A stretch of DNA of 64,000 nucleotides. It comes from Styela clava. Taxonomy: Eukaryota; Chordata; Ascidiacea; Stolidobranchia; Styelidae. The position numbers and the translations under genes were made by a program. Of this stretch, positions 21,956 to 62,715 are shown one piece after another (position 1 is the stretch's first letter; each line of letters opens with the position of its first letter). The notes under the pieces were generated by a model. The model had not been told where the DNA came from. It made no database searches and saw only the letters and a program-made list of their open reading frames with translations. The stretch is from positions 2,976,001 to 3,040,000 of the forward strand of contig NC_135259.1 in NCBI RefSeq assembly GCF_964204865.1, given 5' to 3'.

Positions 21956-22923
21956 TATATACAAATATATATATACATATATTATTCGTTGAATTTATAC
22001 GATAGAATGTTTTATATATATATATATATGTTGTCATATTGATTAAATATATTTTGACTCAACTTTACTCGCATATAAACAAGATATTCTTTGTTATCTT
22101 TAAGTATATATATATATATATATATTAAATCAAGTACTCAAATACAGATTTGAATTGAGTCATTTTTTGAACGATCCCTCTTACAGCCAATTAGCTCATA
22201 TGAGCTTCTTCATTGACCACTTAACTGCTAATTTAACTGCTTATTTGGTCATAATGTAAATACTGGGTTAATACCTTCCATTTGAATGGGTGAGAGAAGT
22301 CACAATCGTAGTGGCCTCTTAAAATACAAAGTTTTTTTTTCAATATGACCGATTTGAGAACAGCGTGTCATGACAATTTCGTCGCTCAGACGGAGGTCTC
22401 GATTCTGTCAATTTCTTTCAGCAGATGAATAAGATAAATCCGAGTTCACATACCTTTTTCAGCATAGTTTCTTCTTCGTAACGTTAGGACTCTATCATAC
22501 GTCGTCTTTCTGTCCAGAATAAACACCCCTTACCTCCAAAACACCTTGTGAGCTGCTGAGCGTAGATTATAAAATATGGGTTGTAGCGTTGTTCACAAGA
22601 TGTCGCTCCATCTCGCGACACCCCGACCTACTATATTGTTAATATGTTGAAATACCATTAGTGTCAATTGTTTGCCATTAAAGCTACACTGACGGGGCGG
22701 TCTCCAGACTGTACTGATATACTCAGTCACAGTTTTATTCAAATAAAAAAATACGAACAGAAAAAAAATCTTGCAGCCCGTTTTAAGATATCCCCCACTT
22801 CTTATGTCACAACGGTAATAAGGACGGACAATGCCGACACGAAGGTTACGATCCGAAATGCGATGAATTTTGATATTTGGTTTGCAAATTTACCCCTATA
22901 ATTTTACCAAACGTCCTTTAGCT
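21956..22923. other. 3' flank of carboxylesterase copy 1, TA microsatellites
   Basis: TA-dinucleotide runs lie at about 21962-21985, 22013-22029 and 22108-22126; they are shorter in copy B. No canonical AATAAA lies close to the stop; ATTAAA occurs about 85 bases downstream. No gene recognised. Confidence 0.5.
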
Positions 22924-28971: not shown

Positions 28972-29094
28972 CTTGAAATTAAATGAAATAATATGCATTT
29001 GCTCAAGCGGCCTTTCCCGCTCAAAATTATTACAACTTTGATTGTTTTTATACCAATAAAACTGAAGTGTAAATGAGAGTGCTTACAAATTATA

Positions 29095-29193
29095 CATGGT
29101 GTCTCAAAAGTAAGTATACACTTCAAATGTTGATTTGTCTTTCAGTTACTCATCCTAGAGCTATCATTTCTTCAGAAAACATAGTATGGATAA
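29095..29193. mobile_element. Truncated mariner-type end at the right edge of copy A
   Basis: ATGGTGTCTCAAAAGTAAGT follows a TA and matches the left end of the complete element at 43933-44522. The match breaks at 29193, where three unmatched bases lead into the hAT fragment. The remaining 490 bp of the element are missing here. Confidence 0.75.
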
Positions 29194-29196
29194 CTG

Positions 29197-29424
29197 ATCA
29201 CCTTTCCATCAGTAAATGGGGTAATTTTAGATATATATAATAAAAAACTCGCTGAAGAACACCAAGATCATCTATCTCATTAAAAAACACTATAAACTAT
29301 GATTTGTCTTCTTATTTGGTCTGTAATATATTCGTTTCTGACTTTATATTTTTTTGTAGTGCAGGGGGGGCGATGAAGTTGTATAAACTACTTTAGGAGG
29401 GCGATGGTCAAAAAAGAACCACTG
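29197..29424. mobile_element. hAT end fragment at the duplication junction
   Basis: Read in reverse it starts CAGTGGTTC, continues TTTTTTGACCATCGCC, and matches the first 220 or so bp of the 22924-25046 element with only scattered differences. The inner end breaks near ATCACCTTTCC. Its outer terminus CACTG (plus strand 29420-29424) is followed immediately by the first base of copy B. Confidence 0.88.
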
Positions 29425-29425
29425 A

Positions 29426-31905
29426 CCTACGTGATATTATTTTCAAGGCTGTTGTGTTGGAGGATGTGCAAATGAGGTATTTAAAAAAGGCGGCCGGTAG
29501 CCTACATAAAATCAAATGAATATCAATGATCTGTCACCACTTATACAAATGTCCACATACAAAATACTATACCGCACAACAAGAGTTTAAAATGCCAAAG
29601 CAGGTGTAAACTAATGCCAATCATGAACAAGATCGAAAAATATTTAATGAAAAAAGGCGGAGGACGACATACGAGTGAGTCCCAGGCTGACCTACGGTTG
29701 TCTCGGATTTTGCTGACAACCACAGCGTGATAAGATAGAACGCCGTGTAAACGTGCTGGCTTCGTTTAAAACTGGAAACGGATGTAATTCACGCGAATGT
29801 CTGTGTGGTTCATTAAAATAGAAGTGAGTTGATAAGATATATTTCGTTAACCGTCACCTCCTGGTGACACAACAATAAAAAAAAGTTAAACAATTGCGAA
29901 ATGAATGATAACATTATACATACTGTTGTCACCTTAATTTGAGAGGATCATTACACTTGGTATATCGATTAAAAAAACGCAGGTAGTTTCAAAACGGTTT
30001 TGTAGCTGTAAGACGATAAAAGGCAAGTAAAGAAAGAAGGATAAAAGTAAAGCTGAACATAGGATTGGATCGGTGCTTCACAAACGGTGAGGTGCGCCCC
30101 TCATAGGGGGCGTAGACAATTTTTAAGGTGGCGTGAAGCGAATTAAGAGAAAAAAGATTTGTTAGATTTGATCTTGCCTGCTTTATTCGGAATATTTACA
30201 TTTCTTATTTTGTCAGCAAAAAACAACTACTTACGTTCCGTCCACGCATTTTCAACGTGTTTTTGAATAAAACATACTTTCGCCTTACTATCTGTTATTG
30301 TTAGCTAGTTCTTTTTGAGGTGAACTTTAGAACCACTGGATTAGATTGGTTAGCTTGATAAAATTATTTAGAGGCTTGAATTTGTTTTGTAGTTTTTATG
30401 CCGTCCCAATCGCTTTACCGCTGGTTGCGTTGGTTTTTTACGCAATTTCTCTTCTGCCATCATACGACATCATGCGACATCATGGCGACGTCTTTCGCGA
30501 CAACTTGGCGCCGAGTAATCACACTTTTCGCTTTTTCGGTTCCGAATCATCGCGAATGCGCTCCATCAGACTCCCAAAATTCAGAAAGCTAAAAATTTGC
30601 ACGCGTGTTTTTTTTTGTTCTGCATGCTTTTCCTGATTAATATGACCTGCACGACGCGACGCTGCAGAGTTACGTGTTGCAGAAACATCTTCGAGGCCTC
30701 GTTTGCAATCTTATATTGGAACAAAAAAGCAGCAAAATTTTCACTGGAGTTGATTTTGTTTGTACATGATTTGACATGTACATGTTTTTTATGCGAGATG
30801 TTTTATGTGCGCCTGTCTTACGCATAATGGGTGCCCAACAGCACTGCATTTCATTACGCAAATATATGATATATATTTTAAATGTTCCACCCATTTCAAC
30901 TTTTGGCCGGCACATTATTTGATAGTTTTACTTTGTGTGAAGTGTTTTTAAGTGTGTCTTGTTTTATCTAGAAGCACCGACATTGCGATATATTACGCAA
31001 ATATATGTTATTCTTTTCTGTTCCGGTCATTTCATTTCTTGCCAGTCCGCGAGTACACTTAATTTAATTTTACGGGTCCGCCAGGGTAGAAAGGTTGGAA
31101 ATCACTGGTTTAAAACACATTCCCCAGTTTACAGGCGCCCACTTGCGAAATCACCCATAAAATGAGCACTAAAAATTTTGCGAAAGTAAAGCATAGAAAG
31201 AATTTTTGCGGCAGTGTCTTCGATGTAAAAAAAGAATGCACAATGAACCATAGTATGTTTAACCGGAACGTGATAAATCTTAGTTTGCAGGTTATTTTTC
31301 TTTAAAAGAGCCGCATGAAATCGTGGCAAGAGGCATTCGCATGCGTGTCGCGGGTTGGCCGCCCCTGGTCTACGACAATGCAATAATCGAGATCAATTAT
31401 TCCCAATGAATCAGATGTTTCTTTAAAATACCAAATTCATTTTTATTTTTTCTGACCTTTGCCCTCATTACATTTTAGCTCAAAATTAGATTTTTTATTG
31501 TATGTGAACAAAAATCATAATGTAACTCTACTGAGTAAAAAAATCGCATATACATTATATCTTCTCTACAAAAAAGGCAAAGTTTTCATAAAATCATTTT
31601 AATTTCGATGATTTAGATTAGCTATATTCAACTGCAGGGTTTAATTTATCACTGGAGAGGAGGATTTTGCCTGCATGTATAGTGAATTTTGCAAGTGAGA
31701 AAGTACAAGTTTGCCACCTAACAGTTCATAACTTTGTTGGAATTGTAGCGCCCTTTGTTGCGAGAAAATGCGTCATGCTGAAACTGAGCCCAGTGCCAAG
31801 CTTAACACGATCACAAATACGATACCTTTTATCGGGAAACATTTCCGTAAGACTGAAAACGTATGCTCCAGAGATTAGCAAAGTATGGAAATAGTTGACA
31901 TGTGA
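29426..31905. mobile_element. Patchwork of hAT-derived ends in copy B left arm
   Basis: Counterpart of 12240-14720, nearly identical over about 1.9 kb. It carries the same transposon-like ends and no gene. Open frames of up to 96 codons are identical in the two copies, but so is the non-coding sequence around them, so this says nothing about coding. Confidence 0.5.
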
Positions 31906-31909
31906 TTAA

Positions 31910-32870
31910 TTAATGTTTTCCAATTTTGAATATTCGTATATTTGTTAAGATATATAATACGACGACAAGAATCAAGTACAGATAGAACTGTTGAGTATAT
32001 GTTTCGAAGACTGATGAATATATGGAAACATCTATGAAAGAATGATTAGAATTAGCAAAATGAAACCAATCAGAAAGTTCAAATGACATATGTGGCATAA
32101 AGGAGATTAGGAGAGTTATTTTAGGGCAATATTCCTGATACGGGGTTTCTATATTAATTAATTCGATTATTTCAGGAAATTTCTGCTTCAATACATCAAA
32201 GTTCCAAAGCCGTACGTTATTAGTGATTAAAATTTTATAGGTTCGAATATGAATTGTATTTAAATTTGTGGGTAGAACGTTTGATATGAAAATTATCTTT
32301 CGGTCATTGACTGTACTAGGGGCTAGGGCTGGTAATTTCAGTGAAAACACTTTAGGGTGGAATTAACCCGTGAACCGCAGCATGGCGTTTGACATAATAA
32401 GTTAGAATTTTAGTTGGTAACGCCATGATGGTTCGAAGTAATATCGCGTGATCTTACCCTAGTATTGCTCGAAATTATTCACGGATCGAGATAGTTTCAT
32501 AGTCGCTCTACTGCAAGGGATATGCAGCGTACTTTTAGTAAAACCTGATTTCATTATTAAATGTCATTTATGTGACAAAACTTCCAGTGTTCGATGTACA
32601 ACTTCTACTTTGATATATCATAAGGAACAGGATCAACTGCGATCGGGAGGTATAAGCTCTATCAGCTTGTCAGATTGTGTTCAACACGACCGGAAATATT
32701 ATTTCCGGTCGAAAGCGTTCGTCCCTACTTCCTGAAAAATATCGATATGCTAATATATCTTTGTGGCAGTATGCGCACTTTTTTAAATGACATTGAATAA
32801 ACGCTTTTGCAATAAAATCGTGAACAATATATTTTGACCGGAAACTGATTCGAAAAATTATCATTTTCAA
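31910..32870 (-). pseudogene. Unrecognised coding-like relic, copy B (146-codon frame)
   Basis: The minus-strand frame 32350-31910 encodes 146 residues with a C-terminal hydrophobic segment at about residues 118-137. A second open piece lies upstream at 32870-32670. The upstream end of the longer frame (LPALAPSTVNDRKIIFIS..) and NNVRLWNFDVLKQKFPEI look protein-like, faintly like a leucine-rich-repeat tail, but I cannot name it. In copy A one substitution stops this frame. Either a decayed gene, or a chance frame. Confidence 0.25.
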
Positions 32871-33051
32871 ACTTTCATAATCAGCAATACTAGTACTTTT
32901 GTTTTTTACATTATTGGGTGCTACCCAATAAAGTTGTACAAGTAAGTACGAAGTTGTACTGGTAAAAGTTACAAGTATTATGAACTACTTCCAATAGTTT
33001 GTTTTGCATTTATGTCAGCATATAAATAATTGTGCCTGAAGTGATCTATAA

Positions 33052-33912
33052 CAGGGGTGGCAACACGTCTCGAGCAGTCGATCGCGTCTGATGTTGAGTG
33101 AATTTTATTGGAATACCCTCCAAAATTGCCTCGAACCAGTTGTGTGTTTTACAACAGGAAGAATACTTTACAGTACTTTACACGCGCAAAATACAATATA
33201 CACATACAGTATTTGAGTCTGGGAAAGCCCGATAAAGCATATTACGTAACGAATGCAAGTTTTTCCGCTGCCGAGGTTTAAAAATTAAGTGACGAATATC
33301 GCGTGTCTAGACTGACAAACGTTCCTACAATAACTTCTGCAGTATACGAAAGTCATTGTCTCACTCCAAGAGTAGAGTGATAAATTTTATTTGCAATGGT
33401 AGCATCGGCATCAATATGCCCAATTTGTTCTAATTTTAAGCAAGCGAAGAATCGTATTTCGAGAAAATTGTAAATCAGATACTGAAGTTTGAGCAGTCAT
33501 GAAACATTCATGATTTAAGAATATTTATTTTTCGCTGTTCGGATAATACATGAATACTTGGCAAGGTTTCTTGAAAAATTTTTAACACCACTAAAAATTA
33601 ACGCTTATATCTGAATTGTATGATTTGAATAAATCTTAATTAAATAAATGATGAAACATTTACTCTGGGTACAATTAAATAATCAAATCAACAACTTGAA
33701 TGGAAAATAAAAAATGCAAATTTTGTGTCCATTTGAATAATAATGTCCCAACAAAGCCTTCTTATTGACAGCGGTATGTGCGTGTGTGCAGTTTGTTTGC
33801 TTTTATTCAGTACCCATTCGTTTTTGTTTATGACCTTATTACCGATCAGTCGATCGCGATCTATTTTGAAGATTTTAGTCGATCGCGGTCGAAAGCAGGT
33901 TGGCCACCCCTG
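33052..33912. mobile_element. Non-autonomous hAT element, copy B
   Basis: Left CAGGGGTGGCAACACG; right reads CAGGGGTGGCCAACCTGC in reverse. Flanks ATCTATAA / ATCTATAT. About 50 bp near 33170-33220 (TACTTTACAGTACTTTACAC..) are absent from copy A. Confidence 0.72.
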
Positions 33913-34027
33913 ATCTATATCATTGTGATTGAAATTGAATTTGGTTTATCTTAACGCTTTATTTAGAATTATCGACGGTCTTGAATAGTATTCATAATAT
34001 AAATAAACGTCACAACATTCCCCGAGT

Positions 34028-37000
34028 ATGAATCTGAAAAATATTTTTATTCGGTATTTTCTGGTGTCTATCCAGCTGGCGTATGTTACATCATCTGAGC
34101 AGGAAAAACAGCAACAAAAAAATGATAGATATCAAGTTTTCACAACAGGTGATTCATGTCATTTACCTCATTTTAGAACGGACAATATTATAGATATTTG
34201 TTTCATCAGGTTGTAGAAATTGAATGCACACTCCAATATCTCTTACTCACACCATTAGATCAATTTGTATATTGTTGCAAAATAAATTAAAATAAACAAA
34301 AAGCCCAAAGTGCTATATTGCATTTGATCAATCATAAATTTAGTTTATCTTTATCTGTATTTTTAGGCATTCAGGGTAATATCGTTGGAGAAGTTACGTC
34401 GGAAGCGGGAATTTTTTGGGGAATCCCATTCAGTCAACCACCGGTAGGTAATTACAGATGGAAGAAGCCAAGACCATGGAGAAGGTTCACAGACAACTTC
34501 TGGAACGCTACGTATAAAAGACCTGGCTGTCCCCAAGATTGCCCATATAAGAGAGGACGCAAATACCTGTGTGTTTTTGAGGTAAATTATGTATTTGTAC
34601 TTTTCATACTGCATTCGCAATTGTTGAAAATTTCGCCAGATAGTATATTTTTTATGGCGTAATCGAGTTTCTTGAGTTTGTGCGGGATCGGGATTCTAAT
34701 AGGCTATAATGCTATTTCTTGAGTATTATTAAAATTATAATTATTTGAGATATTCGTCAAATAATGGGATTCTTCAGTACTTTAAATATTGACTGCGTGA
34801 TGACGCCATGCTTTGCGGACTATCAATCTATAGATTTGTATATGGCATTTTATTGAAATCTAACTTGCAAACTCTCTGAACACTGCACCAAGAAACAAAA
34901 TTTAATTTTGCGAAAATATTTCGTCACAAATAAAAAAATGCGATTAATATTCTAGACATCGGAAGATTGTCTATACTTGAATATTTGGATACCAAGAAGA
35001 ATACTTGTCAAGAGGGATAACTCTACCAATATGAAAGGAGATCATTACATTATAAACAACGATATTAAAAACAACAGAAACAAATCATTAGCAGTGATGG
35101 TGTATTTTCACGGCGGAAATTTTTTACATGGCTCTAGTTCACAAATTATATACGACGGTCGATTTCTGGCACATAGAGGAGATGTCATTGTTGTAACAGC
35201 TAATTACAGGTAATTGTTACGAGTTTTTCTGTCTGACTTTATCCTGCAAAAGCGTGGTCAAATTATGGTGTTTTAAACTATCAGATAAAATAGCCTTACA
35301 AAAAAGTAAGAAATAACTGAATATTCACACGTCACTATGGCTTGAAAAATCATGGCATACCATGTTGTCAACAAAAATATACACCCGAAATCGGCGGATG
35401 AGGGATTCACATACTGCAACAATTGAATGTGAATGTGATGAATATTGTGATTAGATAGATCAGGATTGGGCAAATCACGGCCCGCGGGCCGGATCCGGGC
35501 CACCGAAGTGTTTCATCCGGCCCATCTCTAATGCCTGCTGAAATTACGACTGTAATTTTTTTGAATATTAATTTCCGTTCAAAATATTGATGAATATGAC
35601 GAATTTTTGTCCAAAATACATACCACAATTTTCCTTGTTTTATCCATACCTGAAAATAATGGGCAAAAAGGGCCACATATACCTCGAACTTACTCATTCG
35701 GAATATTTGCGTCGTTCTAAAACTCTGGCGTCTCTCCCAAGACTAGAGTTTAGGCCCGGAAATTAAGTTTTTTTTAGAAAGCTTCAAGGACTTTTTTGCA
35801 ATGCCGCAACACATGTGTTTTCATTCTGTTCAGTACATCAATTTTAGGACTTAAATCTGATTCTTCTGTGTACACTCACGTCACCTGCTAACATTCCAGT
35901 GTTATTCAATGAATCTCTTGCAGCAAATACCTATTGAAATACATCAGTGAAACGAAAAGGCAGGCGATTGTTATCGACGCCTGTTATTTGTAATTAAACT
36001 ATTTTTCATTAATACTTTCATCTTGAGTTTTAAACATCCGACCCAGTAATCATGTCTATTATCTGTAAGTGGCCCACTTAGAAAAGTAATTGCCCACCTC
36101 TGGGATATATAGATAAAGCCTATCCCGCGCGTAACACAGTTAAAATTTTGTGCTCATTACTCAAATCTAATGATCTATAACACAAAATTGTTACTGCGTG
36201 TCAAATGTCTGGAACCTGAGTTATAGGGGCCTATGATAACGTACAACAAGAATACATTTTTATGAAAAAATTTATTCATTCTCCTTAATATTAAATGTAA
36301 CGATGCATGTCATAAAAAAATAACTATACCCTTTTGTGCTACAGACTGGGGCCCCTTGGATATCTTGTGCAAGGAGAAGGGGATGATGCAGCTGTTGGTA
36401 ACTACGGGGCTTGGGACATCATTATGGCTCTGAAGTGGGTCCAGCGTAATATTCAGTATTTTGGAGGAAATCCAAATAAGGTATTCAATAGTTTTACATT
36501 TTATTGGCAGATTTGTTTATTTGAAAAAAACTTGTCGCTGATTGAACAACTTATTCATTGTATGACTGTATTTAACTAACGAATCCGATAATAAATAACC
36601 CTGGTTTATGGTAGTTGCACCCACTGATGTTATCACAAAGCAACTGTCAATGACATTCTGGTTTTCACAGGTAACAGCTTGCGGACAAAGTGCCGGAGCT
36701 GAAGTCATTGGCATTTTATTGACCACGTCATATGGTGATGGGCTTTTTCATCAAGTTATAATGGAGAGCAATCCTCTATCTGTTCCATATAGGAATATGT
36801 CTTCTGCAAAAGAATTTGGATCACAATTCGCTATAAAAGCAGGTTGTAATCCTCATGATATGAAATGTCTTCGAAATACGTGAGTATTTTAAGATATTTC
36901 AGTAAGATATTTAGTAATTTATATTTTGAAGAAAAATTGTAATAACGATGTATTTATTATTTCAGAAATGTTTCGAAAATAGTAAAGGCTTCTGTTGGAG

Positions 37001-38879
37001 TGCCGTTCGATTTATTCAGCTCAGAAAGTATACTACTGCAAGCTCAACAATGGAGTCCTGTCATTGACGGCATCTTGTTGTATGAAAATCCAATAAGTAT
37101 ATTTCAGCGGGTAACTATTTTCCTTAAAACTTAATGAATATGAAATAAAGTGAATGCGAATTATTAAAAAAAAAACATCCAAGAACAAGTCAACATTTTA
37201 TAAGGTAGAATGAAAGGAAGCTGTCGGTGTATTACTCACGGAGGAATAGTTTAAAACAAGTTTAAAAGTACCAACAGTTTTAAAGATAACTTTAAACACA
37301 ACTATGATTCGTTATTCTTCAGGAGTTGCTTTTCCCATTCAACTTTTTTTTTTAATTTTCAGGGCGATTTCCGAAAGGTTCCCATGATTATAGGAGGAAA
37401 TACTCATGATGGATTTCAATATGTCAAACTTATATTCTCAAGCAAGGTTTCGCAGTTTGTTTATCAATTGGCTATTGATGCGATACTTCGCGAAAGAGCA
37501 AATGCATTGTTGGATATATACCCACCTAATGTAAGTTAATTATCTGAGCTGTTCCTGCTGTCGTATAGTTGTTAAATACTGAACCTAGCCATATTTTCGT
37601 TTTATTAAATTTGCCTGTTATGCTCTCCTGAAACCATAGATCAAAACTCTTCAATGTTATATCAGTCAGTGCAATCCGTCTTGGTTAGTTTGAATAATAT
37701 AACCTTACCTAATTCAGTTTGATGTTTACGAATTATTAGGTAGATTGAATATAAAGTAATATTACAGGATTTGTTGACTTAGCGCCAAAATCAATGACAA
37801 TATTATCGTAGCTTAAATTGAGATAAAACAGTATGCAAAAATAAAATAAAAATGATAGTAAACATAGCCAAACATTTGTTTCACTTCAGTGCTGCGACAA
37901 CACAAATGAAGTAAATGACATTATAGCGGATTATGTGTTTCAATGTCCTGCAAGATTGTTCTCCCATGTTGCGAGTAAAGATTCTTGGTTCTACGTGTAT
38001 AATGGAACATTACCCTTCAAGGTAACTTGTAGTAAACAAAACGTCAATAAAATTTGCTGATTATGTGTTCATGACAAATCAAAGAAGCGGGTAAAATATA
38101 GGACAGTATGAGTCTTGTTGCATATTATATAAATATAACCTAAAATGAAGGTTCTCGTCCATTGTTTACATACCCGATTCAGCTTTACGTACAGTACTTT
38201 AAATAAATTTAACATGAACGAATTTATACCAATTCACAGTCAGTGTGGGCATTCGAAGAATGTCGTGATAGAGCTTGCCACGGGGCGGAAATCGCCTCAG
38301 TATTTGACCCATCGCCGATGATGCCAGATTATAATGAACCAGAATTGCAATATAAACTTGCCCATCGTGTACAATACTATTGGAGTAATATGGCTAAGCA
38401 TGGGAATCCTAACGGAAAACATGAAGAGGTAATAGATTGTAAAATGTTATCATTCACCAATGATATTTTAAATACTGAAAACATCCAACATTACATTATC
38501 GTTAGTATAGAATGATCCTACAAAATAAGTAAGTATTGGAACACAGCATGCATGTTCATTCAGTCTACAAATAAATTTTTGTTTTGTGATAAATTTTCAC
38601 GATTATTTTTCTTCGAGTCCAAAATTGATTAGCACTTTTCTATTATTTCTACGGATGCATAATGTATTTTCATTCATTCAATTAACCTCTTTCTAATGCA
38701 TTCAGAATGAAGCTGTAGTGAAGGAATATGACATAATAAACTGGGACAGATTTCAAGAAGACGATGAACCAGATTACAAATCCATTCTATTTACAGATCG
38801 AGGAGAAAGAATTGAAACAAATTCAATGAAAAGTAAATGCAACGTCTGGGATGAATTGAATATATACGCCATGTTATGA
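34028..38879 (+). CDS. Secreted type-B carboxylesterase/cholinesterase-like protein, copy 2
   Basis: Ten exons: 34028-34148, 34367-34581, 34956-35209, 36345-36480, 36671-36879, 36966-37110, 37363-37530, 37890-38021, 38240-38428, 38706-38879. Every exon has the same length as in copy 1, and the product is again 580 aa. The signal peptide, HGGNF, GQSAG (Ser249), GGNTHDG (Asp376) and HGAE (His474) are all kept. Replacements cluster in the signal peptide, in the loop before the HGG strand (for example RILVKRD for RILAKRD), in DGILLYEN for DGNLLYEN, and in KHEE for KHGE. Splice sites are intact, so both paralogues should be functional. It converges on the complete sulfatase gene. Substrate unknown; the Trp that marks cholinesterases is missing. 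Confidence 0.92.
35461..36102. mobile_element. hAT MITE in carboxylesterase intron 3, copy B
   Basis: Counterpart of 18530-19176. The left end here reads CAGGATTGGGCAAATCACGG, with two changes in the terminus; the right end reads CAGAGGTGGGCAATTAC in reverse. Confidence 0.7.
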
Positions 38880-41657
38880 TATATACAAATATACATATAT
38901 TATTCGTTGAATTTATACGATAGAATGTTTTATATATATATATGTTGTCATATTGATTAAATATATTTTGACTCAACTTTACTCGCATATAAACAAGATA
39001 TTCTTTGTTATCTTTTAGTATATATATATATATTAAATCAAGTACTCAAATACAGATTTGAATTGAGTCATTTTTTGAACGGTCCCTCTTACAGCCAATT
39101 AGCTCATATGAGCTTCTTCAATGACCACTTAACTGCTAATTTAACTGCTTATTTGGTCATAATGTAAATACTGGGTTAATATCTTTTATTTGAATGGGTG
39201 AGAGAAGTCACAATCGTAGTGGCCTTTTAAAATACAAAGTTTTTTTTCAATATGACCGATTTGAGAACAGCGTGTCATGACAATTTCGTCGCTCGGACGG
39301 AGGTCTCGATTCTGTCAATTTCTTTCAGCAGATGAATAAGATAAATCCGAGTTCACATACCTTTTTCAGCAAAGTTTCTTCTTCGTAACGTTAGGACTCT
39401 ATCATACGTCGTCTTTCTGTCCAGAATAAACACCCCTCACCCCCAAAACACCTTGTGAGCTGCTGAGCGTAGATTATAAAATATGGGCTGTAGCGTTGTT
39501 CACAAGATGTCGCTCCATCTCGCGACACCCCGACCTACTATATTGTTAATATGTTGAAATACCATTAGTGTCAATTGTTTGCCATTAAAGCTACACTGAC
39601 GGGGCGGTCTCCAGACTGTACTGATATACTCAGTCACCACTTTTCGAAAATTTTTATTCAAATAAAAAAAATACGAACAGAAAAAAAATCTTGCAGCCCG
39701 TTTTAAGATATCTTCCACTTCTTATGCCACAACGGTAATAAGGACGGGCAATGCCGACACGAAGGTTACGATCCGAAATGCGATGAATTTTGATATTTGG
39801 TTTGCAAATTTACCCCTATAATTTTACCAAACGTCCTTTAGCTGATGATCACGCGATAATGACCCTGTTTATCTGACTGAGCGTGCAATTCTGCAAGAAA
39901 AAATAAAAGAATAAAAATAAACATCGATGTCCACGGTTATGCGACATGCGAGGCACTGAGAACTGGGGAAATATAGCTCTCTAAAATTAGGATGATGACC
40001 AAATCTTAGTGGCTTAAAAAATAAAACATCAAAACGCGACTCGTGATTTCAGTGTTCACAAATTTCAGCAAAAAGAACGTGAAAATTAACAAAACGTAGA
40101 ATTTTCGAATAATTTTTGACAAAACTAGTCTAATGCCAAATGCCATAAAAAAGACTAGTTTATAATAACAGCAACCAAATCGTAATTATAACTGTGACGT
40201 TACTATGTTTTAACCCATACCTATAATTATATAAATAGGTATTTGTACAGTTAACTTTTTTCAAAATTTTGAAATATACAAAGACAAAAACCATCTGTAG
40301 TACCATTCTTCTTCGTGGACCACCGTAAGTGAAACGTTCAAAACAGAAAAAACGACTCAAATAGATTTCAAGCTAACATGGGTGGCGCACGATTTTTCAC
40401 TAAATGTGTCACACAATATATCGAAATATAGTATATTACAATTTTATAGAAGTTCTAGGAAATACCTACAGATGTTCCACGTCAGATTGCGGTTTCACAA
40501 TTATGTTTAATGATAAGAAATTCAACAAAATATAAATCAGTGAGCACGTATTTGGTTTTATGATGAGTTTTTTGCAATAATACGATCTCTTAAATAACGT
40601 AAGATTTGTAAACAGTAGGAAGTCTGCTAATGTTATTCCTAAAGCATGCTTCATTCATCTTGGCGTAATAGATAGGTATTTAAAAAGAAAACTGAAAGCT
40701 TAAAATCACAAGAAACTGTGTAAAATATCCTTGTTGTGTCTCTTCACTATTTTCTCACTTTGACAAAACTATACGATTGAAATATTTTACTTCCTCACGC
40801 TTTGATTCTCGTAATAACCCAGCTTCACTTTTGAACAATAAGTTTTGTTACTATTATTATCACTTAATTATTCTTTATCTAAAAGTCGATATCGGAATTT
40901 CGATCTTCACCCAAACTTGGAATGCTAATTCTGTTTGTTTATAGTTGCTCATTCAATACAACAGCACAGTATAGACTCCAAAATTGATAATATAGGTACT
41001 TACCTAATAGCATGTCACAATATTTCAAATATAAAATCGTCGATCGTATATGGGCCGACGAGCCGCTTATTTTGCTTATAATTTCATACATTACACGAGT
41101 AATCAATCGAAGCGCTCAATACCTAAAGTTTATTGGGAAATAAAATTTAAAAAGCAAAAGTATCTCGAACATTCAAAACCACAGATGAGAAAACACTACT
41201 TCGTACAAAGACGTACATTGTAAGAACTTTATGAAGACCTATAAAATATTGAAGACGTCTCAGATGTGTTTACTGTCATAAAATGTAAAAAGAAACAGTT
41301 GGTTAAACTAGTATTTGGTGGATTCAGTTCTAGAAAACTTCTACAACGCTTAACAATCATCAATGGGTTCTATTAATGTGTGGTGCATTTGCTACATTGG
41401 AGTTGCATTTCTTTTCTTAGAATTTTGTACACAAGCATTCGCCGGGCGAGATATATGTTATAATACAACAAAATAAAATACCTACTGTGTTAAATCGTGA
41501 GCTTTTTGATAAAAAAAATTGTGAAATACTAGCTGTCTTTGTTTCTTTCTATACGTCCAACTACTCGAAGTACTTGAAATTGAAGGGTGAAAATTGATGG
41601 TAGTTTTGTAAAATTAAATTAATACTACAGATCAAAAATTTCTTCATCACTAAATTG
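38880..41657. other. Intergenic between carboxylesterase 2 and arylsulfatase
   Basis: TA microsatellites are shorter than in copy A. It includes the empty site (about 39836-39848) corresponding to the copy-A hAT insertion. No gene recognised. Confidence 0.5.
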
Positions 41658-44600
41658 TTATTCCTCGTTATAGTTGCATTTGCATAAAGGTGGGTTACAG
41701 CATGGAGCATCGTTGGTATATGGTTTGTCAATTTCTGATTCTACGGCCAATATACTCGCATTGTGAGCTTGTACCCGTTGAACAACCAATTTTAACACTT
41801 TCTGAAATTCTTCACTTTCTGGATCCAACGGAAATGATTCCTGGGGATCTTTCTCGATGTCATATATGAGTGGTATATCTTGCTTCGTAGCTTTAGTTTC
41901 CATATCGTAAATTGCATCTTGAACAGTTGAACTGGTATAGTCGCAACGAATCATTTCATCAAGTTTCTTCATAATATCCACTGAATTAAATATCCAAATT
42001 ATTTTCTACTCATACAACATTTCAGATACGATGATATTAGCATTTGTACCAAAGAGTGTGCACATAAAAAATCGAATCCACAAATCGATTTCAATTGTTC
42101 AATACTTCGAGATGATTGAAGCCGCTATAAAAGCCCATTACTTTTTTTCCTCTGGCCATATGAGAACCGATATTTCACCTAAAACTTTGCTGTTATATTT
42201 ATATTTGAAGGAACATTTCAACGTGCTTGGCCGCGAATTGACTAGGATCGACTATGTCGGGGGTCTCCAACTCGAAATATGTCGCGAGCCACTTTTAAAA
42301 TTTAGTCGTGCGCGAAAAGCTGATTTGTTAACTCTCATTTTTTTTAAATTGCTGCTAATTACTTCACAAGCCCTCAACAAACACTATTAAATAAAGCTTC
42401 CTTCAACGAAATGACGCAACGATTTCGTAATCATCTCACTTATGGCAAAGCTTGCTTTCACCGAATCTTCACAAGTTTTGTTTACATCTGAGAAAAAAAA
42501 TTTTCTGTCTCATCGGTGAAAATTTTATTGGCAATACCTTTCCGTGACGAATTGTTTTAGTATAGACATGGTATTTTCCCCTGTGCAATGAGCCGTAATA
42601 TCGTCGGATGTTGTATCATTTTCGAACAGCGATAATTGGGCAACATATGAAACACTGAACCTTGTTATTATAATTTCACACAAAACACAGATCCTCCCAT
42701 TTCTCATAAAATATTCTGTGCTCTTCCAAACATTCACGCTCATTGGATATAGCGTATTGGGGTACTACTTTATAAAAAGTTTATAATAATCTAGTTTTGC
42801 ATTTTTCCGATAACTGCACATATGCAGAATTAATGATTCATAGCTGCACACTTCAAGTTCAATGATTTGACCGAAACTTGTTTATTTCGTCACAATAAGA
42901 ACCAAATGAAAATTATTGAATTTACAGTTTAACTATTATTAAAATATGAACACGATCAAACTCATAGTTGACATCGTACTATTTTCGTTTTTTTGGGGAA
43001 AAATTTAAATCACGACGCGGGCCGCAAAAATTGCTTTGAGGGCCGCGTGTTGGAGACCCCTGGACTATGTCATTATTGATATAAATACTAGATATATATT
43101 GATATAAATACCATAATTCAATGACATTAATTTCCGCGTCTTACCTGCCAATCGGAATTTATAATAATGAATTTTGTACTGTTGATGCCTGGCGGCTGTT
43201 AGTACGCCGCTATGGTAAAAGAACAAGGTTTCATCATTAGATTCTGATTTAAGTCCTTTGATAACTTCATCATTCACGTGGCCATCTATGGTTAAATTAT
43301 GACGTTCGATGTAGTTGGAACCTATATTGTTTTTGCATTTTTTAGTAAGATGAATGAAAAATAATTAAGTTAAAAACAATTCAGGTAAAATTGAAAATTA
43401 ATTGCATGCACTAAATTCTGAATCTATATTATTATTATACTGATTATTTAAAACAATATTTTGTCCGAAGTAAAAATTAGGTTTTCAACTTTTGAATTAC
43501 CTGCTATTTTTAAAACAGTTGGGAAGATGTCCAATGAACTAAGAACAGCGTCACTAACAATACCAGGCTTTATAGTTCCAGGCCACCAAGCCACGGCTGG
43601 TATTCGAATTCCTCCTTCCCACGTGCTTGTTTTCCCGCCTCGAAATACGCCAGGAGTTCCACCGTCTCCACATCCGTCCAACTTGGGTCCGTGATCAGAT
43701 AGAAAAATTACTAGGGTTCGTTGCTCCATTTTCAGATCAATCAGTTGGTCCATAATTTCATTAATTGAAGATCCCATTTCATTGACCATATCACCATATA
43801 TTCCTTGAAATTAAATGAAATAATATGCATTTGCTCAAGCGGCCTTTCCCGCTCAAAATTAACATTATTACAACTTTGATTGTTTTTATAACAATAAAAC
43901 TGAAGTGTAAATGAGAGTGCTTACAAATTATACATGGTGTCTCAAAAGTAAGTATACACTTCAAATGTTGATTTGCCTTTCAGTTACTCATCATAGAGCT
44001 ATCGTTTCTTCAGAAAACATAGTATGGATAAGTAGTAAAATTTAGGTATTGTTTGCATTTTTCATCGACCCACAGAATGACAAGGACATTAACCCAAGAA
44101 ATGAGGTGCAAAATTGCTGTTTGGCAAGAAGCATAAGGCAGTAAGGCAAACTCAGCTCCTCTTTAACAGTAAATTTGGAATTAACTTGGCTCTTAACGTT
44201 TTTCTTAGAGCGTCCGCTCCTTGGTCTTCCTGAACTTTGTGCATCAACTGCAGATCCAGTTTCCATAAATTTACGATGAATTGCATGAATTGTTCGTCGT
44301 ATAGAAGCCGAATTAATTCTAAATTCTCTGTTAAAGAGGCGCTATGTTTGCCTTACTGATTTATATGCCTATTGCTAAACAGCAATTTTGCACCTCATTC
44401 TTGCGTTAAACTCCTTGTCATTCTGTTGATAAAAATGCAAACAATAGATATGAACGCTCTATGATGATTACCTGAAAAGCAAATAAAATATAAAAGTTTA
44501 TACCTACTTTTGAGACACCCTGTATATATATAATTTAGTGTATACAACCAATATGTCATAAAAAAATAACGTGAGGAAAGACATCTCAATCTTTATCATA

Positions 44601-47824: not shown

Positions 47825-50800
47825 TATGATTGTTGGAAGTTTTGTTACTTTTAACTTTGCTATTTATCCTGTAAGAAATTGAACTGATTTTTTTAAATTT
47901 ATTTTCTTAACAAGGGGCAATTTTTCGAAATGCTTGATAATCTTCGGAGACTCTAGCTTTAAATGGAAACACCCTATCGAAACAAACCCTAGGAAGCTAG
48001 GCTACCCAGTATATTTATACACAGGAAAAAATACATGGTTCACAATATAATATGACTTAAAGTGGCAATAAATCTGTTGTCTATTTTTATGACATCGAAA
48101 TAATAGGTATTTGAGAAAGTCAATATTAATCTGGATGAAAAAATCCAGGTCATATGGGCATCCACTATTTGCGCACTGTGTTCAATTTGAAACATATCTT
48201 TACAACCGGAATTTTTGACGTCCGTTTTTTATATACGTATTATGGAAGGTTATAGGACTTTTTACGACGAAAATTTCGGTAGCATAAACTTTTGAACTTT
48301 AACTGAAAAATATTTGACGACTACCTTTGATAAATAATAAGCGTAACATTATCGAGAGCTTAACTCTATGAGAGACACAAGTGGCAACAGATGTAAAATA
48401 GTGATTTTTCATAATGTGCTACAATGCAAGTAATGAACAATTGTGTCAAAAGGTGGAAGTGGTAAATGCAATGGAAAGCGTGAATGTACATTTGTTTACT
48501 AACGAACTTATAATAAGTAACATTTAATGGAAAAGTCACATTGGTTTCTAACTTGAATCAAAAATGATATTCCGATTTTGGACGGAGATCAAAAATGTGT
48601 TTTAACCGCAAATCGTAGTCATCACTGTTGAGGTCCCCATAAAAAATGTGGTTTTGCTTCCCGTGGCGTTTAATTCGAACTAAAATCTGTTTTTAATAAA
48701 CGTGTGTCAGGGGTTGTTGATATTCGTTTAAAGGTGGTTTTGTTTTTGATATTTGGTCAAAACAAGGTAACACGCACTAAGTCAGAAACTAATGAGACTG
48801 ATTATTGAGCAAAAAAGTGTCAAAAGCTATACTGAGATTATAATGAATCATGGTATAGCATTGCGCGTTAATAAATACCGATTGGCTCGAGACTTGAAGA
48901 AGTTCATTTCAATACAATCAGGAAAACGGTTGTGAGGTAGTAGTGAATTCCACATAACTGGGGGTTCTCGGTAAAACCTTTATGCATAAATTCATTTCTG
49001 TCTGGTATGTACGGTGACAAAAAAACGGAGTTCGGAGTTCTGACGCTAATTGGAAGCCAGTCAAAGTTTTGTATTCATTTTCGAATATGAATCTAGGAAG
49101 TTTTGTCACAAACTGGGTTTCCTATCGCAGTACTCGTTATGTTGGCCAATATCATTTGGCAGTATACAATGCTGATGTATTGTATACACGTCCATATATA
49201 CGTCCAGTATTAATCGGATTTGATACACGTATAGGGGCTACGCGAGATATTCGTTTACTTTCTAAAATACTAACTTGGCTAATTCTGTAAGTGTTCAAAG
49301 AAGCAATCTAACATCTAAATATGGCAACAAGAAGGTAGTTCAAATATGGCATGATCTATAAGTTCTAATAGATCATTTTCATTTAATTTTATAATTTTTT
49401 GTGGGCCTTTTATTGATCACTTCTGTTCCATGTTTGCGTCAAACTTACAATGAGAATGATATGATATCTAAAATTGTGTGATTCCTTATTTTAATATTTG
49501 GGAATACCCTTTTACACCTCGATTAAGTTCGTAATGCTGAACATAACAGTGAATAAGTTATGCAGATTAGTGGTACAATGTCTAAAGTACCGAAGAGAAT
49601 TCCGATATATCTCACTATTAATTATATATGAGAAGAGAACTTAATGTAGTCATCAAAGCGCTCGCCCGCTTTCTTGTACTTTGTGGTTGACTCTTTTCTT
49701 CGCAAAGAGTAATGCCCGTAGTAAACTGTAGTCCCCGAGCAGAATGGAAGCAGCGTTTCAATTCTTTGTCATGCATTTCATTGTCAATTGAAATTACTCA
49801 ATAGCTCGAACCTCTGGTGCGATCCAGATATAAATATGAATTTGTAAATTAACTCTTTCCACATGGGCATGACTGGAAAAATTATTCGAAACATTTTTAG
49901 ACGAAATTTATTTCCCACTACCAGCGATTTTGGTCTATTGCAGACCTATGAGAGGTCTTATCATAAATCTAAAGGCATGGCCATGACTAGAAGAATCATG
50001 TAGATCCTTCTTAGGTCAAACTTTTTTTCTTCCGCCCCCAGTCACGCTTCAGTGGTTTCTGTTCACATCTCGAGAATGGTAATAGATAGGGGTGCTATAT
50101 TTGTGTCAACAAGGTAATTGAAGTGAAGTTTACGACAAAAAATTATTGTCACGGTTGAGTGATCACGCACCTTAAAATTGATTACTCACTCCTATTAGGA
50201 GTGATCAGTTTATCAAAACAACCCGATGGACTAAAGGCGTCGAGGGCAACGCCCATTCGTCGGCGCAACGATTTTCGTTTTCGTACATCTATCAAACACC
50301 CAACTGAGCCTCTTCTTTTCACTTCATCTACTTTTCCTTATTATTCCCCGCGCGGAATGGAAATGAAAAATGCATACAATACCTAAATTTTACTACTTAT
50401 CCATACTATGTTTTCTGACGAAATGAACGCTCTATGATGAGTACATGAAAAGCAAATCAAAATTAAAAGTGTATACTTAATTTTGAGACACCCTGTATAT
50501 GTAGTGAGGCAGGACCAGGCTGAATAAGTCAGTCAAAAAGATATTTGCCCAACATCGATCTTCTGTCATGACTTAAAAGCTCTCGTGCGGAGTGAAATTC
50601 CTCAAATACAAAGCAAAGAACGCACAGCATGCGAATCCCACTGGTTCACAGTGTGGATTGTTAGTTGGGTTGGTAGTTGGCAGTACCCCTTGAAATTAAT
50701 ATTTTGAGGTCTCTAAACATGTGGATCGCGTAGAAATCTAAATAGGCAGATGCGCTTACTCAAGCAGTTTTCTGCAGTTGAGGTTTGCATGCTGTTGCAT

Positions 50801-56710: not shown

Positions 56711-59700
56711 ATGTCGTCACCGACAGCGAATTTGGAACCTACTGACTATCAAACTCATGAACCCGAACGCACAGAACTAAGATCGGATACTTTGCGACGA
56801 AACTATGGAGATGTAACACCGTATGGAACGCTTCCCAAACAAGGTTCTTGTGAAGATCATGACGATGCTGATCAGATTGAGCGAGATGAGATAGGTCGAC
56901 TATCGCCTACGAAAGATACTGCTACTCGTCGTCACGTTTCTCCAACTATGGCATCATCAACTGGAACCATGAGATCATCAGGATCCCAAGGAACAACTTT
57001 AAGAAGATCGAAGGGTGGGTTTTATACTCGCTCGGAAGAAGAAGCCGCGCCCATGCAAAATCTGGGATATATCGATTTTATGCCTAAAAAGAAGCACCAA
57101 TCCATTCAAGCATCTAAAAACTACCATGGCTTTTCGTAAGTAATTTTCCGTTTGATTTCATACGAATATTTGATTTGAGTATTTTACTAAATAGCTAATT
57201 GTTGTTTGTGCTATTACAAAAATAAAAATTGATAATTTTATGAAAACTATATATCGTTGCGGTAACACAAACACACATGTAATTGAAGAAGGATTAGGTG
57301 AAAACCTCAAACATATAAATTGTTGGTAACGATAATACCCAAATTGTAGAATCATGATTGTCTTAAATCTGAGTATGCATTCCACGTTCAAGGTGCTTTT
57401 CATACCTCTTCAAATATGCCTCCAACGTTTATAGTTCTAAACAAAAATTAGCAAAAATTTATAGACAATTTTATCACGTTGAACTTTTGTATTTGAAGTA
57501 TTTATTGACAATATCTGTCTAGTATTAGCTAACATAAACCAGTCGGTATTGTTAAGATATTTCGAATTTCTGTACGTGTTTTCACCAAGTTTTGCCATGA
57601 GGTACACCTTTTCGTTCATCTTGTTTTTATATTTTTATAGTTCGTGCGTAACAGAAGCTAATAAATTCTTGGAACAGAATCCACATATTCAAATAAAAAA
57701 TTGTGAGAGTTTGTATCAAAGATTAGATCACAATCACAGAGTCAATCCCGAATCAACAACATCACATGATCGATCCTACGTTATAGGATTGAGGTGAGGG
57801 TTATAAGTTTAGTATTTTGTTTGTCAATTGTAAAGCTAGAAAGCGCTCAAGTGATGAAAACTAGGGTCAGATTGTGACAGAAAACGATATCGAAGATAAT
57901 ATTCCCACGTATTTATTATTTCGGTACATGTAGCGCCATGAACCAATCGAGCGAAACAGTACTGAATTTCTTTTAACTTACTACTATATACCGACTATCA
58001 TTGAATATATCAGAGTAGGTCATTTTGCACATTTCAAAATTAATAATTTTAACTTTCAATTTACAACTATTTCCATTTTTGTTGTTTTATATGCTGCACA
58101 ACCGAATATTATGCTATTTATTATTTCAAATCTTGTAAAAAATAGAGGGTCTTTCAATACAGAATGACAGACGTTATCTGCCAGAACAACCAAGCAAATC
58201 TGCCATTTGTCAGTGTCTTTTTTAATACCTAAGTCCTAAAGGATTATCATAAATTACATTTGCATTGCTAGGCTCTGGTATAGTTTGCCTGAAGTAACAG
58301 AAAACGAAGTTTTTGTTGCACCCGAATCAATTGCACCATCAGATGAAACTCAAACAACGTCAGTACCTACGACGTCATCTTCCCAAAGCTCGGATACTCA
58401 CTCGAACAAAGAGAGAAATGCTAGAAAACTCTGCTACATGAACATTTTACCTGAGAGCACAAACAAGGATAAAAATACAACTACCATGCCGAAACATCGA
58501 GATCGACCGCCTTTCACTGGCATAAAAAGTACGCTGCGAAAATTGAACGAGGCAATATCTAAAAATCAGATAACGGGTAAGCTGTCTATATGTCATTCCT
58601 AATAATTTCGTTTATTTTATATTGTGTAAAATGTACGATATGAAGCAGGCGCAGGGATTGCATGTTGTTAGACATCAAAATTATACCCAGTCCATGCCTC
58701 CGAAAACAAATAACTGGCTAACTAATCCTATACCCGACCTGGACTGGTAACCGGACGAGCGGCCGTGGTTCGCCATAGGATTAAGCCGTCCCATCGGCTT
58801 TCCTCTCCCCCGGGATAAATATGTAATTCCTATCCTAACCGTGACTGTGAGCAAACTGTGTGGCTGTCTTCAATAATAGTTTAAGGCAGGGGTGTGCAAC
58901 CTGCTTGCAATGCCCTAACAGCTATAGTTTGTGCGAAAGAACAACGAATGTCATAAGATCAATAATCAAAGTTTTGTGCCTGCCACTACTAGAAAGCCTA
59001 TGTTAAATAAAAGTGCGGCCCGCGGTTTCACACAGTTATGTGTATCTGGACTACTTGTATTAACCGCACCGCCGCGACAGCACGGTATATGTGTTATTTT
59101 TTTTTTTACATAGGTTAACAAAAAACGCTTGCTGTGCTCGTTCAGTCCCTCGTGGACTCCGGTCCAATCCAAAAAGGCATCGCAATTTGGCTTGTGGCTA
59201 ACACATCTTGCGTTCAATAACAAGCCATGCGAGTTTGTTTGTTTTCATATTATTTGGATGTAGAGAGTACAGTTTCAAAGTATAAATAGTTCCAAACAAG
59301 ACTCATTTTATGAGTTAGGATTTTAAGTTTGATTTTTCCCAAAGAAACATAATTTGACAGATTGACAAAAATTTGTAAACCACACGCTCATTCTTGTCTT
59401 TAGTCAAAAACAAAATTGACATAATCGATGTTTTTCTCGAGTCTTACATTTGTCAATTAGTAAGTTGTTTCCCAGAGAGACAGCCACTTCAAAACTTTGG
59501 TTAACATGTCACGTCTGTAAAACAGATAACACAAATATTAAAAATAAACGTGATCTTTTTTGATTGGCCAGCTTTTAACCTAGAATGAATGCCAAGACCT
59601 AAACTGAATACGCTGAATTTAAGCTTGATAGATTTGGGGATAGATTATACACTCAGTCTTTAAGCAAAAATGAACTCGCCGATGACAACAGCTGTAACTA

Positions 59701-62136
59701 TCGTAATTCCGTTTTCATAGAGCATTTTGTTTCAACATGTCTTTCAATACCCACACACCTATACGTGATATACCAAACCCACAAAGACCCCCAGACAAAT
59801 ATACAAAGTTGTCTAGCAACACTTCTCTCTGGTTAGATGATGATAAAGGACCTTCATCTCGAGTGCAAATATCTGTTTGCAATTTGCAGCACGTTGCAAC
59901 TTGAGTTATAGTTCATTAGCTGTATTCTAAATTAAACAGGCAACATGGGACAAATAACAGTAATTAGGCATTACTCTTTCGCGAATATCTAATGTGATCT
60001 GATCACCCTACCACGATCCCTGAAACCTTTATATATAAAAGTAACGTACAGGTTATTTGACCATACCAATCAAAAATATATTATCACATTATGCTAGGTC
60101 ATATAATCAACATCGAGTCAATACCAATCAACTACTCGCATGCTTTTCGTGATGCTGGAGATTTGGATCCTGACCACGGATATTGGTGTCTGGATTATCA
60201 CGGAAGATGGAATTTTTTCATCATCCGAGTTTTCTACATCGAAGATAAACAGGTCACGGGCGAATATGACATTGGTAAGCTATGCCATATTTCGATTGTC
60301 CTGAAGTCCGGTTGACTTGTTTCTTTCCGAATTGATATATTTCTTCGTCTTCCAAATCAATGCGGTTATACCATATCATCCAGAATGAGTAGATATGCAT
60401 TTTAATTTACATATCTAAATCTCCAGAACAAAATTCCGATTTTTTAAATTCAATGAATCTATGACAGACTTTCTGGTTTCCGAAATTTATACCTCATTTT
60501 CAAAGTTGCCCAATTAAAATAATTTCAAACAGATCCGATTCATAAATGCATTAACTTTACCAGGATTTGAAGACTTTTCACCGTCTAAAACAAAGCAGGG
60601 TGACAATGTTTCGTTTTCCGGATTTTCGTCTTTGAGTAAAAAAGCAAGCCGTTGGCTGTCAAGTGAACCCGGAATCTCTATCGTGGGTTCTCAAGCCATT
60701 GAAATCCCTTTCAATCAGAAGCAAGAAGGTAAGAGTAAGAATGCTGGTGTAAGAGCAATTGCTGTTTTAACATTTAGCAAATATAGACATAGAGAGAATA
60801 CTCTCAAACTGTCAGTTCTTTACTTGCAATCGAACTTCATGTTGGAAGAGCCTGAATTTCCATTAGCGATGTTTGAGCTTCCTAATTACTCCATCTATAA
60901 ACATTTAAAACCTATTCTATTTATCACTAATAATAATTGAGCTGTGCTATAGCGTATGTCACTATACGTCCATTCAGTTTAATACATTGTGATTCCTGGT
61001 GCAATTTTATGAGAATAGATTCAAATAAAATTGCCACTTGACATAGAGATAACCACCAACCAAGATACAAAAAATATTTCCATACCTAGAGCAAAAAGCG
61101 TTCAACACAAGCTGCTCGTTCTATGAAACATCAAAAATAAGTGCTCAGTTACATACACTGAAATTCCTGCGAATATGGTTCGCTCGTGGTGAAAGACAGA
61201 CTGTCCAGTCGTCATCTTCGGAAACACAGGTATATTTTAAAATTTTTACTGAATTTCAATCACTTGATAAAAATATTATTAGGGTTTAATTAAGAATCTT
61301 GCCAGGAATATAAACTTATTTAAATTCATACAGATTGCTCAAGAATCTCCCCATCCACCTCTGTCTAGAACATTTAGACCGGGAATAGCGATTCGCACTG
61401 TTCTACCCTGCCAAATCACTACAGCAGGTTGTTGTGGAATACGAAGGCCAATTTTTGCAACTACTGAGGATACAATACAAAGAATAAATGAGTGGATTGC
61501 TATTACAGGTACATTTTTTCACTGGCTGTGTATCGAGTTTTGTTAATATTTATATATATATTGTGAAATCATCATTACTATCCCACTCATCTTTAACATT
61601 TTAGGCGAAATCGCGTTTTTTGTAGTTTACATCTACAAAAACTAATGTATTTCTAACTTGCACCTATACAATGACAAATATTTTTGGGTGTCTTCTAAAA
61701 CATATTCTCGCCTCACTTAAGGTTGTTTCATTTTTATTGGCATTTTAGTATATATGTATATATCGCTGGGAATTTACTTTCGCGTGAATAACCGAACTAC
61801 AATCCAACACTTCTTCAATTTACACCGCAAACATCTAAATCTTTATTCAAACGTGTTTAAGGTGCTGATGTCATTTGCGTCCAGACTGACAATATCGAAA
61901 AATGGAGAGGACAACAATGCCAACTAGGGAAAGATTTTTCTGAAAAAACATACAACAAAGCTGACTATTCAAGCGCAGTTGCCGCGAATTCAGTAGAATA
62001 TAGATTGGCTGCTCTTAGAATCTTCATTCGCGCTGATTCACAAGGCAAATTTCCAGAGCCGGAAACAAAAGAATTACTGGGCGCTCCAAAGCCAGTAGAA
62101 CCTTGTTGCTGTTTTGTAGGCTGTGCTGTCATGTGA
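56711..62136 (+). CDS. Unrecognised 604-aa protein: four repeat modules and a CAAX C-terminus
   Basis: Eight exons: 56711-57135, 57641-57793, 58272-58576, 60098-60274, 60564-60728, 61090-61229, 61334-61508, 61862-62136; all phases agree. Residues 1-140 are Ser/Thr/Arg-rich and probably disordered. Then come four imperfect modules, each a short helix, a strand with I-x-I or V-I, and, after a variable loop, a hydrophobic strand of LR-[LI]-W type: EANKFLEQNPHIQIKNCES..VIGLRLWYS (147-197), LNEAISKNQITGHIINIES..FFIIRVFYIE (about 284-330), ASRWLSSEPGISIVGSQA..KFLRIWFA (381-440) and INEWIAITGADVICVQT..LAALRIFIRA (506-571). The C-terminus CCCFVGCAVM has a CAAX box (CAVM; terminal Met favours farnesylation) with upstream cysteines that could be palmitoylated, suggesting a membrane-associated intracellular protein. 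I recognise no family. Start ATG is the first in the frame, but an upstream exon is possible. Confidence 0.8.
58681..58850 (-). repeat. SINE-like GC-rich repeat in intron 3
   Basis: This GC-rich block stands out from its AT-rich intron. On the minus strand it reads CCCGGGGGAGAGGAAAGCCG, then GGCTTAATCCTATGGCGAAC and CCGGTTACCAGTCCAGG. I have an impression of similar repeats in ascidian sequence, but cannot verify it. No element borders or target duplication found. Confidence 0.4.
58887..59225. mobile_element. hAT-like end fragment in intron 3 of the four-repeat gene
   Basis: Begins CAGGGGTGTGCAACCTGC at about 58887 and contains the GTGCGGCCCGCGG motif common in these elements. The opposite terminus was not identified; the right limit is approximate. 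Confidence 0.5.
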
Positions 62137-62715
62137 GCACAATTGATATAATGGTGCCCATGTTCGTGACATTTAGTATGCATTCACCGACGTCAATGAT
62201 ATTTTGCATATCAGTTCATATTTACTGGCCGCACAATTCGATACCACATGAGCAATAATAGATTCTTTTCAATGCTTTGTGTTTTGCACGATCCCTAATG
62301 TCACGTAACATGAAAACTACAGAAAGCCCAGTTTATGGGGAATTTTGAATATTGCCGAAAGTATGTTTTGTACCATTGTGCCCGATATTGTTTGGTCTGT
62401 TTTCATCCCAGCCCATAACAATGCTTTCCAAGCTAAGTGTTGTCAACTTCAGTCGCCTTGCTCAGTACGTAAAAAGTACGATTAATGGTGTTAGGAAACA
62501 AAATATTAATGTAAAAAGCCATTCGGAATCTTAAACAAATTTTGATAGACTAACCGTTGATATAATTTAGAATAGGTTCATGTTTTTAATGTTTTGATAA
62601 ATCTCAGGTGCTCTATTTTTGTGTTATGTGATTAGTCTTTTTATGTAAATATTTGCTTGACAATTATACCAGAATATAATTCTTGAAGTTTGAATAAAAG
62701 AAAACCAATTTAAGA
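62137..62715 (+). other. 3'UTR and polyadenylation signal of the four-repeat gene
   Basis: AATAAA at 62693-62698 is the first hexamer after the stop codon that is followed by a plausible cleavage region. A 3'UTR of about 570 bases is inferred. Confidence 0.5.

Follow-up and report, generated by a model that had tools for sequence, protein, structure and literature searches.

The question raised by this locus is how a repetitive ascidian protein was assembled and whether its C-terminus could tether it to a membrane. The locus lies in Styela clava contig NC_135259.1, within positions 2976001-3040000 of the forward strand, a stretch of 64 kb that was analysed as a whole and is referred to here as the window. 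The initial annotation had placed a spliced gene near the 3' end of the window and had read its product as a protein of four equivalent repeats with a farnesylated tail and no known family. In this report, we show that the first of its four modules (R1 to R4) is like the third and the second like the fourth, and duplication of a two-module unit would be the simplest history for this arrangement; we then weigh how the two module types, the gene model, the absence of a family name and the C-terminal tail bear on what the protein may be.

The duplication is carried by alignments between modules. Local alignment of R1 with R3 reached a score of 73, which none of 20000 shuffles equalled, and that of R2 with R4 a score of 40 (74/20000 shuffles); over the stretch of R2 and R4 up to a common ITG motif, which was picked after alignment, the count fell to 2/20000. 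Joining the modules strengthened the picture: R1+R2 aligned with R3+R4 with a score of 78 (z 9.5, 0/1000 shuffles), and this alignment was collinear, starting at the upstream block in the first module and running to the ITG motif in the second, where both units carry an intron. Because R1 pairs with R3 and R2 with R4, and because the joined modules align collinearly, we conclude that a unit of one A-type module (R1, R3) and one B-type module (R2, R4) was duplicated. The repeats are thus related beyond chance, as is expected of a tandem-repeat protein, and the relationship between A and B is weaker. Common descent, which had been claimed for the repeats from the outset, therefore holds for a duplicated two-module unit and not for four equal repeats.

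The borders of the modules proved critical. With the four segments as first proposed, the six pairwise BLOSUM62 alignments were matched or exceeded by 36, 109, 236, 388, 787 and 906 of 1000 shuffles, and leave-one-out profiles for R1 to R4 by 53, 2, 56 and 262 of 2000; these segments were unconvincing and were set aside in favour of modules extended upstream. Of the two strands that the initial annotation had placed after a helix in each segment, the LR-[LI]-W-type motif was found in all four: the pattern [LI]R[LIV][WF][YFI], picked after inspection of the protein, occurs in exactly four copies (residues 192, 337, 435 and 565), one per segment, and among 20000 shuffled proteins 95 contained a single copy and none contained more. 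The I-x-I/V-I strand, represented by QIKNCESL and the equivalent stretches that follow the helix, was at chance by itself, with 252, 88, 142 and 75 of 300 shuffles at widths of 6, 8, 10 and 12.

Extension upstream brought in a further block with an aligned proline in 4/4 modules, LGYIDFMP, LCYMNILP, IGFEDFSP and IAIRTVLP in R1 to R4, which was matched by 14, 0 and 0 of 300 shuffles at widths of 6, 8 and 10. An ungapped motif search with one site per segment recovered a 15-residue helix block that begins ahead of the first-proposed helix (YHGFSSCVTEANKFL in R1, FTGIKSTLRKLNEAI in R2, FSGFSSLSKKASRWL in R3 and FATTEDTIQRINEWI in R4), at 2, 0 and 0 of 100 shuffles for widths of 12, 15 and 20; at widths of 8 and 10 the same search picked the LR block instead (11/100 and 3/100). 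The LR block alone was modest (2, 4, 13 and 19 of 300 shuffles at widths of 6, 8, 10 and 12). Leave-one-out profiles of the extended modules R1 to R4 were equalled or exceeded by 12, 0, 0 and 19 of 5000 shuffles, so that the self-profile comparison, weak with the first borders, became clear once the modules had been extended.

The motifs common to all four modules make it likely, as judged from sequence comparison, that A and B go back to a single ancestral module. Several observations weigh against this and against four modules of equal standing. Once the modules used for training had been masked, a scan of the entire protein with the leave-one-out profiles gave top scores of 0.6, 11.9, 5.1 and -0.5 bits for R1 to R4, so that R1 and R4 were weak in this test. 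Two controls also gave low counts: when the segments of R1 and R3 were reversed, the motif search returned 8/100 at width 15, yet 0/100 at width 20, which suggests that the four-way signal is owed largely to the two pairs; blind quarters of the protein returned 2/100 and 6/100 at the same widths. As the module borders were set after viewing the protein, the shuffle counts are optimistic. Direct A-B kinship was weak: global alignments of R1-R2, R2-R3, R3-R4 and R1-R4 were matched by 2, 72, 48 and 347 of 2000 shuffles, and local alignments by 314, 148, 1465 and 692 of 2000, leaving R1-R2 as the only A-B pair that stands out, and only globally. Finally, the sole structure model, of the 51 residues of R1 encoded by exon 2, folded without an alignment, contained two helices (residues 2-12 and 21-34) and no strand; this model has a mean predicted local distance difference test score (pLDDT) of 68 and a predicted template-modelling score (pTM) of 0.41, and the piece includes neither the upstream block nor the LWY end. 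Thus, of the alpha/beta fold that had been anticipated for every repeat, the first helix agrees with the model, and the strands are unsupported in a fragment that lacks both flanking blocks.

These observations raise the alternative that only one duplication is real, that A and B are unrelated domains and that the protein consequently has two repeats, not four. Three of the four A-B pairs being weak globally and all four locally, together with a strand block between helix and loop at the level of chance, are as this alternative would predict. Against it stand the [LI]R[LIV][WF][YFI] motif common to all four modules, the upstream block with its aligned proline (0/300 shuffles at both larger widths) and the global R1-R2 alignment, and we regard unrelated A and B domains as unlikely.

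The intron shared by the two B-type modules fits with the duplication of the unit and supports it, and adds less than the initial annotation held. Introns 3 and 7, both of phase 1, interrupt the codons of Gly295 and Gly514, in each case after 'IT', at the ITG motif that had been noted. Counted from a shared Asn, however, the two differ by three codons, and aligning them requires a gap of 3 residues; when introns were placed at random under the phase mix of this gene, 2.8% of trials gave two of the same phase no more than three codons apart, and 0.4% gave two in the same column. In addition, each of the gene's four phase-1 introns interrupts a codon for Gly or Glu, and such codons begin with G. 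Since a G ahead of GT is preferred at splice donors, the third letter of ITG is partly a splice-site feature.

The gene itself appears to be a real protein-coding gene, with an open spliced frame. Its eight exons (Table 1) join to 1815 nt, which comprise 604 codons and a stop; donors are GT and acceptors AG throughout, and the phases are compatible (2, 2, 1, 1, 1, 0 and 1 for introns 1 to 7), so that the initial exon structure was borne out. The guanine plus cytosine (GC) content is 0.42 in the joined exons (0.346 in exon 2 by itself) versus 0.34 in the introns, and 0.466, 0.458 and 0.337 at codon positions 1, 2 and 3 of the exons. A tblastn search of the protein against the window gave eight significant matches, which were its own exons, and the remainder had E >= 1.1. 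Composition suggests that N-terminal residues 1-115 are probably disordered. The first ATG of the open frame is at 56711 and the frame stays open upstream to 56579, which leaves room for further 5' exons and hence for a model that is wrong in part, through missed 5' exons or another 3' end, such that the N-terminus or the tail would be foreign to the mature protein. Such an error is very improbable in our estimation: junctions and phases are consistent throughout, the alignment of the two units spans exons 1-3 and exons 4/5-7, and the tail lies in exon 8 together with the repeated block that ends module 4. Intron 3 (58577-60097; 1521 bases, GC 0.381) is far longer and GC-richer than the other six (GC 0.20-0.33), pointing to the insertion of a repeat element.

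Table 1. Exons, modules and C-terminal features of the gene (positions in the window)
Feature	Positions	Strand	Content
Exon 1	56711..57135	+	Residues 1-141 and part of 142; Ser/Thr-rich N-terminus (1-115), then module 1 block LGYIDFMP
Exon 2	57641..57793	+	Module 1 (A-type) helix and following part, up to GLR
Exon 3	58272..58576	+	Module 1 end LWY, linker, module 2 start to phase-1 intron after ITG
Exon 4	60098..60274	+	Remainder of module 2 (B-type), including IIRVFY block; then the beginning of module 3
Exon 5	60564..60728	+	Module 3 (A-type), GFEDFSP block through helix
Exon 6	61090..61229	+	Remainder of module 3, FLRIWF block
Exon 7	61334..61508	+	Module 4 (B-type) start to phase-1 intron after ITG
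Exon 8	61862..62136	+	Remainder of module 4, including ALRIFI block; then linker, CaaX tail and TGA stop
Module R1 (A-type)	57059..58296	+	Residues 117-201, exons 1-3
Module R2 (B-type)	58426..60249	+	Residues 245-345, exons 3-4
Module R3 (A-type)	60265..61196	+	Residues 351-444, exons 4-6
Module R4 (B-type)	61379..62043	+	Residues 471-574, exons 7-8
C-terminal tail	62104..62133	+	CCCFVGCAVM, CaaX box CAVM and three further cysteines
Possible polyadenylation signal	62693..62698	+	AATAAA, 557 bases past the stop

Searches for a family were made in Pfam, NCBIfam, PHROGs and PDB as well as in collections of phages, plasmids, viral contigs and prokaryote contigs; eukaryotic proteins were not among the collections searched. 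Pfam returned nothing at or above its curated cut-offs for the whole protein, the first-proposed segments or the extended modules; the lowest E-value, 0.012 for the arterivirus model Arteri_GP4 (16.1 bits against a cut-off of 27), and lincosamide-enzyme names under their cut-offs were rejected, and the other rows listed likewise fell short. NCBIfam gave no family for the four first-proposed segments. The four extended modules drew six PHROGs families, each with one module (best E 0.013), and no family in the Pfam and PHROGs scans of these modules matched more than one of the four. PDB gave no match to the whole protein, and the four rows returned for a profile of the extended modules (best E 0.25, an oxidoreductase) were judged to be chance. 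Residues 144-604 had no match in the phage collection; R1 drew 115 plasmid records, 114 of them from rhizobial genera, and the best 20 of the 115, at E >= 0.3, were judged to be chance. Among viral contigs, 18 pattern matches to R4 and one to the whole protein, and among prokaryote contigs 54 to R1, yielded none that was confirmed. No such protein appeared among the titles and opening lines of abstracts listed for literature on similar proteins, the tail or the box. Thus, the claim that the protein belongs to no known family stands as far as the Pfam and NCBIfam cut-offs and PDB reach, and its description as undescribed is not established, given that eukaryotic collections lay outside the search.

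Two resemblances were considered. By eye, the helix-strand-strand pattern is reminiscent of Cse60-type small spore proteins, with a helix, an I-x-I/V-type strand and a hydrophobic strand in common; no such family appeared for any module to E 10 in the Pfam and NCBIfam scans, which were made without profile comparison and did not confirm the resemblance. The sequence of module 1 (LGYIDFMP ... GFSS...AN.FL...P.I.I.N.ES ... GLRLWY) is reminiscent of unnamed invertebrate and fish proteins. This would accord with the explanation that the protein belongs, as an unremarkable and rapidly evolving member, to a family widespread among animals, entered in databases as 'uncharacterized protein' without a Pfam model; it would then be nothing new in kind, and perhaps only its two-unit layout is lineage-local. 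The common motifs and constrained plan are what an old family would be expected to have. The genome of S. clava itself (376.6 Mb), searched with exon 8 and R1 as the only queries, offered no relatives in its favour: exon 8 found itself alone at E <= 0.001, and R1 recovered the two places where it is itself encoded, along with two matches at chance level (E 0.8 and 3.6), one of which showed no module recognisable by eye in its open frames. With eukaryotic collections outside these searches, we give membership of an unnamed animal family a substantial chance, somewhat below even.

The CCCFVGCAVM ending named at the outset was confirmed in the joined exons. As in CaaX-prenylated proteins, the C-terminus is a CaaX box, CAVM (residues 601-604), and 4/15 cysteines of the protein fall within its last 10 residues (hypergeometric P 5e-5). 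Human farnesyltransferase modifies other M-ending boxes (PMC11152559), and CAVM is close to the farnesylated sequences tested there, although CAVM itself was not found in the main text of that source. The C-a-a-M C-terminus is shared with lamin B (CAIM), N-Ras (CVVM) and K-Ras4B (CVIM), as given in PMC11152559, and the present protein, like these, has no membrane span by hydropathy; unlike them, it has no GTPase or lamin domain by Pfam, its box is preceded by Cys-rich hydrophobic residues and its lipid is a prediction.

H-Ras and RhoB are dually lipidated CaaX proteins with extra cysteines. The tail described here likewise has additional cysteines a few residues from that of the CaaX box; it differs in having three consecutive cysteines 4-6 residues before that position, and the body of the protein matched no such family in the scans made. 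The tail is thus a plausible farnesylation signal, and palmitoylation of its other cysteines is possible, both as predicted from the residues present. The segment before the box speaks partly against this: the small and flexible linker described in PMC1175975, which occupies about 11 residues before the CaaX box, is preferably hydrophilic, and here PKPVEP is largely polar, whereas CCCFVG is not and would fit poorly with such a linker. It could be asked whether the box is fortuitous and the protein soluble, with the modules doing all of the work. The closeness of CAVM to tested substrates and the clustering of cysteines argue otherwise. By hydropathy, for which no dedicated predictor was run, the protein showed neither a membrane span nor a signal-peptide-like start (best 19-residue window 1.29; mean of the first 40 residues -1.38), so that nothing of this kind contradicts a cytosolic protein. 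We consider a fortuitous box rather improbable.

The explanation that we put forward tentatively, at close to an even chance, is that of an intracellular protein with a probably disordered N-terminus of ~115 residues, two A+B units of ~200 residues and a CaaX end, acting as a lipid-anchored scaffold. Each unit would consist of an A-type followed by a B-type module of ~85-105 residues, and the ancestral module may have comprised a strand-like block ending in P, an F-x-G helix, a further strand-like block and an LR-[LIV]-[WF] strand-like block. Farnesyltransferase would modify Cys601, after which the last three residues would be cleaved and the new end methylated; at least one of Cys595-597 may be palmitoylated, and the lipidated tail would hold the protein at the inner face of the membrane. 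Because no catalytic motif was recognised, the A and B modules are pictured as surfaces for binding, within an adaptor or scaffold that is attached to the membrane and has a flexible N-terminus. A scaffold is the most likely role, and it is purely inferential, which counts against the explanation as a whole.

Elsewhere in the window, a large tandem segmental duplication occupies 12238-29193 and 29424-44031, with pieces 91-99% identical; the first copy contains carboxylesterase-like and sulfatase-like exons by Pfam, and near-identical open frames occur in the second. Two open frames with fibronectin type III (Pfam fn3) matches on the minus strand, at 130-435 (E 1.2e-5, just above the cut-off) and 2614-3027 (E 9.1e-5, just below it), are possibly parts of one receptor-like gene. 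Short inverted repeats of 84-91% identity pair 43929-44065 with 50363-50499 and 44047-44191 with 44306-44446, and an open frame amid them (44042-44341) recalls the start of a transposase, with no Pfam support.

Together, the internal duplication is demonstrable and the protein is unnamed in the libraries searched, and its claim to novelty rests on absence from collections that were not eukaryotic. That the A-B modules constitute an undescribed animal domain, which was duplicated pairwise and attached to a tail with dual lipidation to give a four-copy membrane scaffold, is possible, and we hold it to be doubtful. Either way, the significance is modest until relatives and a structure have been seen. 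For a family that databases already contain without a name, the value of the present analysis would lie in a clear definition of the modules and of their duplication history; should the modules instead prove to be an undescribed domain, a model of it could at once give names to many 'uncharacterized' animal proteins and provide a handle on their role at the membrane.

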